IMG/VR virus record: IMGVR_UViG_3300037246_000312
Coordinates: 1-40,941 of that record
DNA length: 40,941 nucleotides
Strand: one strand, 5' to 3'
From: a virus
The notes beneath the pieces are model-generated. The model saw nothing but the letters and a program-made list of their open reading frames with translations, was not told the origin of the DNA and searched no databases. A program made the translations under genes and the position numbers. Shown here one piece after another: positions 30,568-40,931 of the stretch. Within the stretch, counting starts at the first letter, position 1, and each line of letters begins with the position of its first letter.

Positions 30568-30903
30568 ATGGTTGACAGGTTTGCCGATTATGAGGATGTT
30601 CTAAAAGAATTAAAACCCGATGACCTTATTGACCAACCGGCGGCGTTTGAAATTGCTTGGAGTTACTACCCGGTGCGGGTAGGGAAGAAGGCGGCCAAGC
30701 GTCATTTTATTGCCACGGTAAAAACCAAAAGGGATTGGCTCCGCAATGTTCACGGATTCAATTTTTATGTGGATTGGGTGACACGCCGCCGACGCAATGG
30801 CCACAAGGACTTGCAATTCCAAAACGGTTCAACGTGGTTTAATAATTGGGATGATTGGGCGGTCATGTCTGAAACGGAACCGGAAAGGGTGCCGAAATTA
30901 TGA
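30568..30903 (+). CDS. Replication protein resembling the C-terminal part of helicase loaders
   Basis: 111 residues. GGGAG lies eight bases before the ATG. The pattern FEIAWSYYPVRVGKKAAKRH, a middle helix, and the end NGSTWFNNWDDWA matches the YP-x-(K/R)-x-GKK ... STWLNN..W motif found at the C-terminus of phage O/DnaT-like replication proteins that bind the host helicase. The DNA-binding N-terminal half of longer family members is missing, so it may be a minimal loader or partner protein. It follows the AT-rich gap with DnaA-like boxes. Family assignment is by motif. Confidence 0.65.
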   Translation: MVDRFADYEDVLKELKPDDLIDQPAAFEIAWSYYPVRVGKKAAKRHFIATVKTKRDWLRNVHGFNFYVDWVTRRRRNGHKDLQFQNGSTWFNNWDDWAVMSETEPERVPKL

Positions 30904-31454
30904 AACCCGAAAAGTTAAAAAAAATCAGGGCGATTTTAAACAACCCGGCCAGCACCGAAAACGAAAAGGAAATATGCCGGAAGTTGTTGGCCAAACACCC
31001 GGAAGCCGACGGGCAATTTCATGTTTTTGATAATGCGAAGGGAAGCCCGTTTTCCCCTATTGAACCATTGGAGGATATTTTCAGGCGGCAAGCGGCACAA
31101 GCCCAACGGTCCGCCTTTTACAATCAACACACAGGGCAAGCGGCCAACCGGCAAGCGGCGGCCCAACGGGACGCACAAGCGGCACAGGCCGCACAGGCCC
31201 GGCAAACCGGGCAAGGCCAGCAATTCGGCGGCGGGTTTGGCAACCATGACCCATTTAGTGGTGTCTTGGGTGGTGCCTTTGGCGCCGGTGGTCAGGCACA
31301 AACACCCAAGGCCGATTATTCGCAAGCCGACTTTGAACGGGCGCAAGCCAACATTGAAGGCCAACGCCGGGCGCAGGAAAACAGCGTTGCAAAGATATTG
31401 AAAAAAAGTTTTCTTAAAAACTTGGCGGCCGTATTAAGAGGGAAACCAAAATGA
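30900..31454 (+). CDS. Ala/Gln/Gly-rich hypothetical protein, 184 aa
   Basis: Overlaps the previous stop (ATGA) and has GGAAAGGG upstream. Residues 1-35 (PEKLKKIRAILNNPASTENE, KEICRKLLAKHP) look like the short N-terminal helices of DUF2786-like proteins. The middle is low-complexity (AAAQRDAQAAQAAQARQTGQ, QQFGGGFGNHD). The last 50 residues form a helix and a basic end (KILKKSFLKNLAAVLRGKPK). It may be a replication-associated protein with a flexible linker. The DUF2786 likeness is weak. Confidence 0.5.
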   Translation: MKPEKLKKIRAILNNPASTENEKEICRKLLAKHPEADGQFHVFDNAKGSPFSPIEPLEDIFRRQAAQAQRSAFYNQHTGQAANRQAAAQRDAQAAQAAQARQTGQGQQFGGGFGNHDPFSGVLGGAFGAGGQAQTPKADYSQADFERAQANIEGQRRAQENSVAKILKKSFLKNLAAVLRGKPK

Positions 31455-32002
31455 CACAAATGAAGGTGACCGAAACCAAAGGTTTGTTTTCTGATTCCGA
31501 AATTCAAGCGGTGTTGGATTATGGGACGGCGTTGCCCAAACAAAAAAACCGCGTGACGCCAAAGGATGACCCCTATTTCCGGGATTGCATGGTGGCTTGG
31601 ATTGACATGGAAAAAGACCCGGCCGTGGAATGGATGTTTAAAAAGTTTACTCCGTTGTTTTATGACTTCCCACAAATCACCCGGCTTGAAGTGTTGCAGT
31701 TTGTCACCTATGGCGTCGGCCAGTATTGCGGGTGGCACGTTGACCAAACCAAAGAGAATGACCACGGCGGTGACCGTATTGTGACTTCTATTTTGCAATT
31801 GAGTGACCCAAGCGAATTTGATGGCGGCAATTTGGAAATACTTTTGAAGGATGAAACTTTCCCCGGAGCCGGGGACGAAGAATTTTACACCGTCAAGCCA
31901 CGCAAAGGGTCAGTCATCTTTTTCGCGGGCGACGTTTGCCACCGTGTCACGCAGGTCACACGCGGCGCCCGGCGGGCGTTGGTTTGTTGGGGTCTTAAAT
32001 AA
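31451..32002 (+). CDS. 2OG-Fe(II) oxygenase 1
   Basis: 183 residues. The jelly-roll oxygenase signature is complete: CGWHVDQT gives His96 and Asp98 of the HxD, HRVTQVTRGARRALVCW gives the distal His164 and the 2-oxoglutarate-binding Arg174. Surrounding strands (RLEVLQFVTYGVGQY; IVTSILQLSDPSEFDGGNLE; GSVIFFAGDVC) match the PiuC/prolyl-hydroxylase-like class. Such enzymes hydroxylate proteins or nucleic-acid bases; the substrate cannot be told. It is followed by a paralogue. The start is set by AGAGGGA and ATGA overlap with the preceding gene. Confidence 0.88.
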   Translation: MTQMKVTETKGLFSDSEIQAVLDYGTALPKQKNRVTPKDDPYFRDCMVAWIDMEKDPAVEWMFKKFTPLFYDFPQITRLEVLQFVTYGVGQYCGWHVDQTKENDHGGDRIVTSILQLSDPSEFDGGNLEILLKDETFPGAGDEEFYTVKPRKGSVIFFAGDVCHRVTQVTRGARRALVCWGLK

Positions 32003-32529
32003 TGGCCGACCGAAACCCGCTTGTGTTCAACAAGGACAATGTTTTCACCACCGCCGAATGTGAACGCATTGCAGGGATGGCCGAAAAAGAAAAAACAACC
32101 GTCATTGAGCAAGGCGAAGGCCGAAGCGCCAACCTTAAAAACTTGAAAGTGTCGTGGCTTTTATACAACATTCACACCCAATTCATTTTTGAACGGCTTG
32201 GATTTATGCTTGACGGGTGGCCGATTTCACGCTTGGAAGATTTGCAGTTTTCAACCTATGGACCCGGCGGGAAATGTGATTGGCACATTGACCACAACGA
32301 AGCCACCCACGGCGGCGCCGCAATGGACCGGCTTTGCAATGCCATTGTGCAATTGAGTCCGCCAACCGATTATACCGGCGGGGAATTGCAATTTAGAATT
32401 GGCACCGCCACTTTCCCCGGACCAATGGCCCAAGGTTCGGTGTTGGTGTTGGATAAAACAATTTGGCACCGCGTCGCACCATTGGAAAGCGGCACCCGTA
32501 AAAGTTTGGTGTCGTGGGGATTGAAGTGA
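32002..32529 (+). CDS. 2OG-Fe(II) oxygenase 2
   Basis: 175 residues, starting on the last base of the previous stop. CDWHIDHN gives His95 and Asp97; IWHRVAPLESGTRKSLVSW gives His156 and Arg166. The core LEDLQFSTYGPGGKCDWHID and GSVLVLDKTIWHRV parallels the neighbour, and both end in WGLK, so they are tandem paralogues. The N-terminal halves differ more, which suggests different substrates. Family is certain; the reaction is unknown. Confidence 0.88.
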   Translation: MADRNPLVFNKDNVFTTAECERIAGMAEKEKTTVIEQGEGRSANLKNLKVSWLLYNIHTQFIFERLGFMLDGWPISRLEDLQFSTYGPGGKCDWHIDHNEATHGGAAMDRLCNAIVQLSPPTDYTGGELQFRIGTATFPGPMAQGSVLVLDKTIWHRVAPLESGTRKSLVSWGLK

Positions 32530-32573: not shown

Positions 32574-33206
32574 ATGACACCGGAACGATGGCGACGCTTA
32601 CAGGACGCCCGAAGGCTTGCGGATATGCACCACGCCGCCCTTGCCGACCATAGCCGCCTTGGTGAAGGTGAAATTGTGGACCGCCTTGGGCAAGCGGAAT
32701 TTGAAAGGCTTGCCAACGAAGTCCCGGCAGATATGCGAATTCACCAACACCGGATTGTTGGCCTTGACGAAGCCAGCGAATTGACGCCCGAATTTTTGCG
32801 GGAATTTTCCGACGTATTGATTGCCCAAGACATTGCCCCGGACGCCGACGCTTTGCAAATCCAACGACTTCCGGGCGGTGGTTCCCGGTATCGTTTCGGC
32901 CGCTTTGCCACGACGCGGTTGCAAGGCCGCCCGGTGACGGGCCGGGAAATTTTGGAACGTCAACGCAACGCCAACACGGCGCCGGTTATATTTGGACCAC
33001 CGGACCCACAGGACGTTGAAGCAGATTTTTATAAAAACAAACTTGGCCGGGAGATTGGCGGAAGCCTTTTTGACCGTTGGTTTGACTTGCATGATTCCAA
33101 CGTAGAGTTGGAAGCGTTTTTGTTTAAGTGTTGGAAATATGGAAAGCAATTTGAAATTCAAGGTGGTTGTTCCGTGGGTGAATTGGAGGAAAATGAAAAT
33201 GGATGA
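32574..33206 (+). CDS. Hypothetical protein, 210 aa
   Basis: ATG 32574 is chosen for AAGGGAAATTAAA upstream; the upstream GTG 32514 overlaps the oxygenase. Helical N-terminus (RWRRLQDARRLADMHHAALA) and a DEASELTPEFLREFSDVLIA segment; a basic patch and GREILERQRNANTAPVIFGP in the middle; an acidic C-terminus (FDLHDSNVELEAFLFKCW). No family recognised. It may work with the oxygenases since it directly follows them. Confidence 0.6.
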   Translation: MTPERWRRLQDARRLADMHHAALADHSRLGEGEIVDRLGQAEFERLANEVPADMRIHQHRIVGLDEASELTPEFLREFSDVLIAQDIAPDADALQIQRLPGGGSRYRFGRFATTRLQGRPVTGREILERQRNANTAPVIFGPPDPQDVEADFYKNKLGREIGGSLFDRWFDLHDSNVELEAFLFKCWKYGKQFEIQGGCSVGELEENENG

Positions 33207-39233: not shown

Positions 39234-40931
39234 ATGCCAGTTGATATTCCCACCCTTAACGTCGCACCTTCCACTATCGTTGCCCGCCTTGCGGCCGGTG
39301 ATTTACTTGACCAAACACCCGTTGCCGTCCGGGCGTTGATGTTTAATGGCGTTCCGTTGGCGGCGGCCACGGTTGCGCCCGGTGACTTGGTTTTAATTCA
39401 AGACCTTGACGACAGCCTTATTTTAAAAGCTGTTACCGCCCAATCCATTGCCGACCTAAACGTAACTTCCGGGGATGTTGTTGGTCCGGGGGGTGCAACT
39501 GACGAAGCGTTGGCGCGGTATGACACCGGCACCGGAAAACTTATTCAAGACAGTTTGATTTTGGTGGATGACGCCGGGGCCATGACCGGGTTGACCGGTG
39601 TGGACGTGACGGGAAACATCACCGTGTCCGGGAACGTGGACGGCCGTGACGTTTCGGGTGACGGTTCCCAACTTGACACCAACACCGGGTTGTTGGCCGG
39701 GATTGAGCCGGGCGCCGATGTTACCGACGAAGGCAATGTTACAATTGCCCTTGACGGTGCCACGCCGGGTTTGGTTGCCCCTGATGCGGCGGACGGCGTT
39801 TTTATTCAGGATGATTCAGATTCAAACAACCTTAAACTTGCCACGGTCCAAAGCATTGTGGACTTGGCGGCCGGTGGTGGTGTTGGTCCCAACCTGTTAA
39901 TCAACGGGGCTTTCAACATAGCGCAAAGGGGAACAAGTTTCCCGGCCATAGCAAGTGGCGTTCATCCAGTGGACCGTTGGGCTTGGGGACAAAATGGCGC
40001 CGGAGTTGTCACAGCAAGCCAAGACCCCGACGTTCCGGCCGGGTTCGTGGGTTTTTCATTGGGTGTGGACGTCACCACCGCCGACGCCGTAATTGCCGCC
40101 GGTGACCTTTACTTAATACGTCAAAAGGTTGAAGGATTTAACGCTATTCCATTGTCAATGGGAACATCCGGCGCCGCCACTATGACTTTGTCTTTTTGGG
40201 TGAGGTCAACCGTCACCGGAATTTATTGTTGTGCGTTTAGAAATGGGGCAAGCGACCGGTCCTATGTGACCGAATTTACAATCAACGTGTCCGACACTTG
40301 GGAATTTAAAACCATCACCTTGACGGGTGACTTGACCGGCACATGGTTGATTGATACCGGCTCCGGGTTGTTGTTGGACTTCCTTTTGGCAGTTGGGACC
40401 GATTTCCACACAACGGAAGATATTTGGACCGCCGGGAACTTTGTATCATCACCCAACCAAGTGAACGGCATGGACAACGCCGCCAATTTCTTCAAGATAT
40501 TCCAAGTCAAGTTGGAAGTGGGTGACACGGCAACGGCCTTCACGCCACGGCCTTTTGGTGAAGAGCTGGCATTATGCAAACGCTATTATCAAAAGACTTT
40601 CCCTTATGCCACGGTCCCGGCCCAAAATGCTGGGAGTGAAGCCGCCCTGCAATATACTTGCTTGAGGGCTGGTGTCAGTATAACCAGATATGAGTGGAAC
40701 TTGCCTGTCCAGCTCAGGATTGACCCTGCTGGGGGGACCCAAATATTTTACAGCCCAGGTGCCGCCACTTCTGATTGGTGGAACTCTACCGCTACCGCAC
40801 AGCTTTCCGGCCTTTCAGGGGTTCAGGGGGTCACCGGGGAAAACCGTGTAGTTATTTCCAACTTACAGGTGGCCAATGACCAATTGACGGACTTGATTCA
40901 GATTCATGCAACAGTTGATGTAGAACTTTAA
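39234..40931 (+). CDS. Tail fibre protein, complete, 565 aa
   Basis: AGGAAGCC lies before the ATG. Residues 1-75 form an N-terminal attachment domain (DQTPVAVRALMFNGVPLAAA; GDLVLIQDLDDSLILKAVTA). The linker SGDVVGPGGATDEALARYDT at about 79-98, with GKLIQDS after it, is a common phage-fibre joint. Short beta repeats follow (GVDVTGNITVSGNVDGRD). Residues from about 220 form the receptor-binding-type tip (LLINGAFNIAQRGTSFPAIA, DRWAWGQ ... AFTPRPFGEELALCKRYYQK). The last 303 residues match the partial gene at 2-913. A promoter may lie upstream. Fibre identity is strong; receptor unknown. Confidence 0.88.
   Translation: MPVDIPTLNVAPSTIVARLAAGDLLDQTPVAVRALMFNGVPLAAATVAPGDLVLIQDLDDSLILKAVTAQSIADLNVTSGDVVGPGGATDEALARYDTGTGKLIQDSLILVDDAGAMTGLTGVDVTGNITVSGNVDGRDVSGDGSQLDTNTGLLAGIEPGADVTDEGNVTIALDGATPGLVAPDAADGVFIQDDSDSNNLKLATVQSIVDLAAGGGVGPNLLINGAFNIAQRGTSFPAIASGVHPVDRWAWGQNGAGVVTASQDPDVPAGFVGFSLGVDVTTADAVIAAGDLYLIRQKVEGFNAIPLSMGTSGAATMTLSFWVRSTVTGIYCCAFRNGASDRSYVTEFTINVSDTWEFKTITLTGDLTGTWLIDTGSGLLLDFLLAVGTDFHTTEDIWTAGNFVSSPNQVNGMDNAANFFKIFQVKLEVGDTATAFTPRPFGEELALCKRYYQKTFPYATVPAQNAGSEAALQYTCLRAGVSITRYEWNLPVQLRIDPAGGTQIFYSPGAATSDWWNSTATAQLSGLSGVQGVTGENRVVISNLQVANDQLTDLIQIHATVDVEL

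Follow-up and report, generated by a model that had tools for sequence, protein, structure and literature searches.

Two overlapping paralogous 2OG-Fe(II) oxygenase genes, candidate protein hydroxylases, in a P22-like podovirus

Gene Pair and Catalytic Residues

The window, i.e., the whole 40,941-base stretch of an IMG/VR virus record that was analyzed, contains two adjacent, intact 2OG-Fe(II) oxygenase genes, here called A and B (Table 1). Their reading frames overlap by one base (TAATG), and the upstream ORF overlaps A by four bases (ATGA), as is characteristic of genes that are translated together; the upstream ORF is possibly co-translated with oxygenase A. This ORF has no PHROG match and no Pfam match above cut-off, and P0003, downstream of the pair and suggested in a preliminary description of this DNA as a possible partner, has no detectable relatives in Pfam, PHROGs, phage records, or IMG/VR.

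Table 1. Features of the oxygenase locus, with positions in the window.
Feature	Positions	Strand	Evidence or remark
Upstream ORF, 184 aa, Gln/Ala/Gly-rich middle	30900..31454	+	overlaps oxygenase A by ATGA
2OG-Fe(II) oxygenase A (P0001, 183 aa)	31451..32002	+	PF13640, phrog_61, motif check, model
2OG-Fe(II) oxygenase B (P0002, 175 aa)	32002..32529	+	PF13640, phrog_61, motif check, model
Downstream ORF (P0003, 210 aa)	32574..33206	+	starts 44 bases past oxygenase B

Both proteins pass the curated Pfam cut-off of 27 bits for PF13640 (A: E=1.1e-17, 65.2 bits; B: E=1.9e-10, 42 bits) and match phrog_61, annotated as “2OG-Fe(II) oxygenase” (3.2e-29 for A and 2.4e-20 for B). Pairwise BLASTP aligns them with 35% identity over 144 aa (E=4e-27), and both have WGLK as their C-terminal end; together, these features argue that the likeness reflects paralogy rather than chance. 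Members of the superfamily carry an H-x-D...H iron triad and a distal Arg/Lys, and a letter-by-letter check located all four residues in each protein, as H96/D98/H164/R174 in A and H95/D97/H156/R166 in B. Judging from sequence, A and B are probably active 2OG oxygenases. The preliminary description had proposed tandem paralogous oxygenases at 31451-32529 with a common WGLK end and had named the same catalytic residues, and these points were borne out, the residue positions exactly. It had also stated that the N-terminal halves differ, which holds for the sequences but not for the fold, as the AlphaFold2 models of A and B, both confident (mean pLDDT of 89.0 and 89.6, respectively), have the same order of strands and helices in these diverged halves.

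Differences Between the Copies

A and B differ from each other between strands 2 and 3, at R44 in A vs. K46 in B, and in the loop that precedes the distal His, which is shorter in B. The Arg replaced by K46 is conserved in the family, L150 of B stands where A has F158, and a column comparison shows B departing from the family at more conserved positions than A does. Such departures, along with the lower PF13640 score of B, would fit a scenario in which one copy, most likely B on account of K46, the loop deletion, and the change from F158 to L150, has had its catalysis abolished or altered and now works as the other copy's partner. We regard this as quite unlikely, given that B has kept every residue of the H-x-D...H...R set and that its modeled fold is confident.

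Both copies have Cys at the third position ahead of the first iron His (C93 in A and C92 in B). At this column, Tyr is found in 137 of the 140 matched motifs of relatives, in a search whose DNA pattern admitted Tyr and Cys and no other residue, and PiuC has Phe. The aromatic residue of the phage family (Tyr) and of PiuC (Phe) is absent in both A and B; membership of the superfamily does not formally depend on it. Such a Tyr-to-Cys replacement, located in the active-site region, is uncommon and might change the reaction that is catalyzed.

Genome Context and Residence of the Pair

Matches to portal, coat, scaffold, head-tail adaptor Ad3, and head closure Hc3 proteins indicate a P22/Sf6-like podovirus. 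The pair is placed between replication/recombination-like and lysis genes, with an Erf-like annealing protein and a short replication-initiator-like ORF before it and a VRR-NUC protein and the tail-fibre region after it. A link of the VRR-NUC gene through CRP-810 was rejected, as the two nucleases have no similarity. ORFs 29-913 and 39234-40931, one close to each end of the record, both match the C-terminal end of the tail-fibre family phrog_4492. Scans for tRNAs and RNA families were empty.

Eighty terminase relatives were taken from IMG/VR, and PF13640 was found in none of the 49 records searched, several of which exceed 39 kb and many of which are fragments. This suggests that the pair is accessory, an argument that the fragments weaken. 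In codon usage and in word depletion, the two genes are like the rest of the genome, which argues for long residence and against a recent acquisition.

Relatives and Origin of the Pair

Single-protein scans of IMG/VR recovered no close relatives of A or B. A DNA pattern over the conserved motif matched at least 120 IMG/VR loci; Y, G, G, W, H, and D are prescribed by this pattern, which biases the conservation seen at their columns. Including earlier loci, we collected at least 141 homologues, and at least 10 loci in this motif-restricted sample have more than one. In a tree of 81 dereplicated rows, whose relevant part has low support, A and B are sisters on long branches (support 94/87), a placement that is suggestive but not decisive. 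This placement, together with the common Cys where relatives have Tyr, favors an old tandem duplication as the likely origin of the pair. In three other loci (L116, L151, and L194), tandem 2OG oxygenase genes combine different clades. The nearest tree neighbors, L190 and L229, have one common gene layout: a phrog_81-type and then a phrog_61-type 2OG oxygenase (L190:1725-3010 and L229:7273-8465) lie downstream of tail-fibre genes, the homologue in L190 directly following the other oxygenase and the tail-fibre genes.

The gene neighbors of the relatives are varied. In 6 of 75 dereplicated loci, a collagen-like Gly-X-Y protein is encoded on the strand of the homologue and no more than 3 kb away; four of these loci belong to one tree clade. 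None were found in 850 kb of loci without the oxygenase gene, which served as an unmatched control. The phage contigs with such neighbors, genes with long Gly-X-Y repeats, are L117, L121, L163, L166, L172, and L185, and their homologues are candidate phage collagen prolyl hydroxylases. Many other family members adjoin genes for RNR, helicase, UvsY, and thymidylate synthase, so the context of the relatives gives no single direction for the whole family, and some members may have a nucleic-acid or metabolic role.

Proteins labeled “ferrochelatase” and “endonuclease V” beside oxygenase genes might themselves be 2OG enzymes. The “DNA endonuclease V” proteins of S-SM1 and 023Pt_psg01 (L006:3971-4459 and L007:5420-5902) both have HxD motifs and no Pfam family match. 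An alignment to oxygenase A was obtained both for phrog_274, which bears this label, and for a BFVD structure of that name; the annotation could be mistaken.

Nearest Enzymes by Sequence and Fold

Among solved structures, phmmer matched the pair to PiuC/PKHD only, and the spacing from the distal His to the Arg (+10) lines up with PiuC. Matches to PRK05467/YbiX are partial, and the score for the NCBIfam equivalog (46.3 bits) is below its cut-off of 143. A profile built from 68 phage homologues matched PKHD, P4H, P3H1, and PHD2 structures, with E-values down to 5e-19; at the weak end were one unnamed 2OG oxygenase and EctD (4e-5), the sole other named enzyme. For both models, the best 50 Foldseek matches comprise PiuC, the Pseudomonas putida P4H (including its EF-Tu complex), the viral vCPH, an algal P4H, PHD2, and a few other 2OG oxygenases. 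The nearest fold and profile neighbors are thus protein hydroxylases, which supports placing the pair in the P4H/PHD/PiuC branch. TET/JBP and AlkB are absent from the Pfam matches, the solved-structure profile matches, and the fold matches listed. A bacterial precedent for protein hydroxylation is the Pseudomonas enzyme PPHD, which hydroxylates EF-Tu (PMC7864055). We found no publication tying PiuC to a 2OG hydroxylase assay, nor one tying phage tail fibres to prolyl 4-hydroxylase.

Restriction-Word Depletion and DNA Modification

The avoidance of GATC noted in the preliminary description was confirmed, with one site in the whole window (1-40941) vs. ~84 expected from codon shuffles, and it is part of a far wider word depletion. 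CGAG/CTCG is absent (0 vs. ~88 expected), as are GCWGC (0 vs. ~37) and CTAG (0), and CCWGG occurs once (vs. ~42). Of the 39 six-base palindromes expected at least four times, 27 are absent, compared with 0.03 in codon shuffles, and the other 12 are close to or above expectation. Within the two oxygenase genes, none of the 13 sites expected for the tested word set is present. Eight relatives sharing the terminase have no such depletion. This extreme depletion of restriction-type words is a matter apart from the oxygenase pair and the more remarkable of the two.

These losses bear on the earlier suggestion that the enzymes hydroxylate bases and so protect the phage DNA. DNA-base hydroxylases, TET/JBP-like or acting on thymine, could block host restriction, and both the many family members adjoining RNR, thymidylate synthase, UvsY, and helicase genes and the position of the pair downstream of Erf and replication-like genes would suit them. 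Yet site loss on this scale, which extends to the oxygenase genes, would be needless if bases were broadly protected; it suggests loss on unprotected DNA and argues, short of proof, that the DNA is exposed to restriction rather than shielded by modified bases. The ORFs scanned, which covered all but some small ones, include no methyltransferase, thymidylate synthase, kinase, glycosyltransferase, or other nucleotide- or base-modification gene. With these observations and the lack of any TET/JBP or AlkB match among the searches above, the suggestion was not upheld, and we consider a base-modifying role very unlikely.

Protein Hydroxylation and Metabolic Alternatives

The other role envisaged in the preliminary description, hydroxylation of host or virion proteins, is favored by the fold models, the sequence profile, and the context of relatives, the substrate itself being a prediction. 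On balance, and by a modest preference, we interpret the pair as two protein hydroxylases, probably prolyl, of the PiuC/P4H/PHD branch that divide their substrates and are accessory in this P22-like podovirus. The pair would descend from a single phage 2OG-Fe(II) oxygenase gene that was duplicated in tandem long ago. Each enzyme would hold Fe(II) by its H-x-D...H triad and 2-oxoglutarate by the distal Arg, and would, with O2, hydroxylate an amino-acid residue on its side chain, most likely a proline, in a protein of the host or the virion. Both copies may have been kept because they split substrates, as their differences in the strand 2-3 segment, at R44 vs. K46, and in the loop ahead of the distal His would allow. 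From the same evidence we infer that both copies are active, that they act on proteins by prolyl chemistry, and that there is a division of labor between them. A more specific version, in which a diverged prolyl-hydroxylase pair with a unique Tyr-to-Cys change enables a small podovirus to hydroxylate two host or virion proteins, e.g., a factor in translation or replication, as one step of a takeover, appears rather unlikely.

Several observations weigh against a protein substrate. The window has no Gly-X-Y protein, so a collagen-like substrate within it was rejected, and no clearly proline-rich virion protein. The pair's neighbors are replication/recombination-like and lysis genes, and many relatives lie beside RNR, helicase, and UvsY genes. 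In addition, EctD, a weak profile match, acts on a small molecule, and the substrate of PiuC is likewise no firm guide. The Cys that replaces Tyr near the active site, with its possible effect on the reaction, is a further point against.

An effect on metabolism, through small-molecule substrates or through a drawdown of 2-oxoglutarate that shifts the nitrogen/carbon state of the host, has been put forward for cyanophage 2OG oxygenases (PMC3037559; PMC9602691). The small-molecule hydroxylase EctD among the weak profile matches would be in keeping with it, as would PiuC, the nearest solved relative, which is annotated as an iron-uptake factor. Two diverged copies, however, suit substrate specificity better than bulk consumption, and 2OG turnover without substrate is usually slow, so that a metabolic effect seems improbable here. 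Protein hydroxylation remains the reading we favor; the fold neighbors, along with the collagen-like gene neighbors of some relatives, point toward it rather than toward DNA modification, and it is open to experimental test. Enzymes of this group are abundant in phages, and the publications consulted describe no tested function for them.

Comparison with Known Systems

The best sequence and fold matches of the pair are the PKHD-type hydroxylases PiuC and YbiX, which have the same His-to-Arg spacing; the phage proteins are shorter, share only ~21% identity over the fold, and fall far under the equivalog cut-offs. With the prolyl 4-hydroxylases vCPH (5c5t), PPHD (4iw3), and PHD2, they share the fold and catalytic frame at <22% identity, but the window has no collagen-like protein and the substrate of A and B is only predicted.

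Among phages, 2OG oxygenases were reported in 14 of 16 T4-like cyanophage genomes (PMC3037559), as eight distinct types in HTVC023P-type pelagiphages (PMC9599517), and as 24 in the single genome of S-SCSM1 (PMC9602691); according to the last study, their viral functions have not been specifically investigated. Gene tables of S-SM1, HTVC033P, and HTVC008M show clusters of 2OG oxygenases. The phrog_61 enzymes of these T4-like cyanophages and pelagiphages resemble A and B in domain and size class and in having at least two adjacent copies in one operon. By contrast, the present genome is that of a P22-like podovirus, identity reaches ~37% at most among the enzymes aligned, and A and B have Cys in place of Tyr three residues before the first His. 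Overall, tandem 2OG oxygenase clusters are already common in marine phages, and the pair described here is a divergent addition to them.
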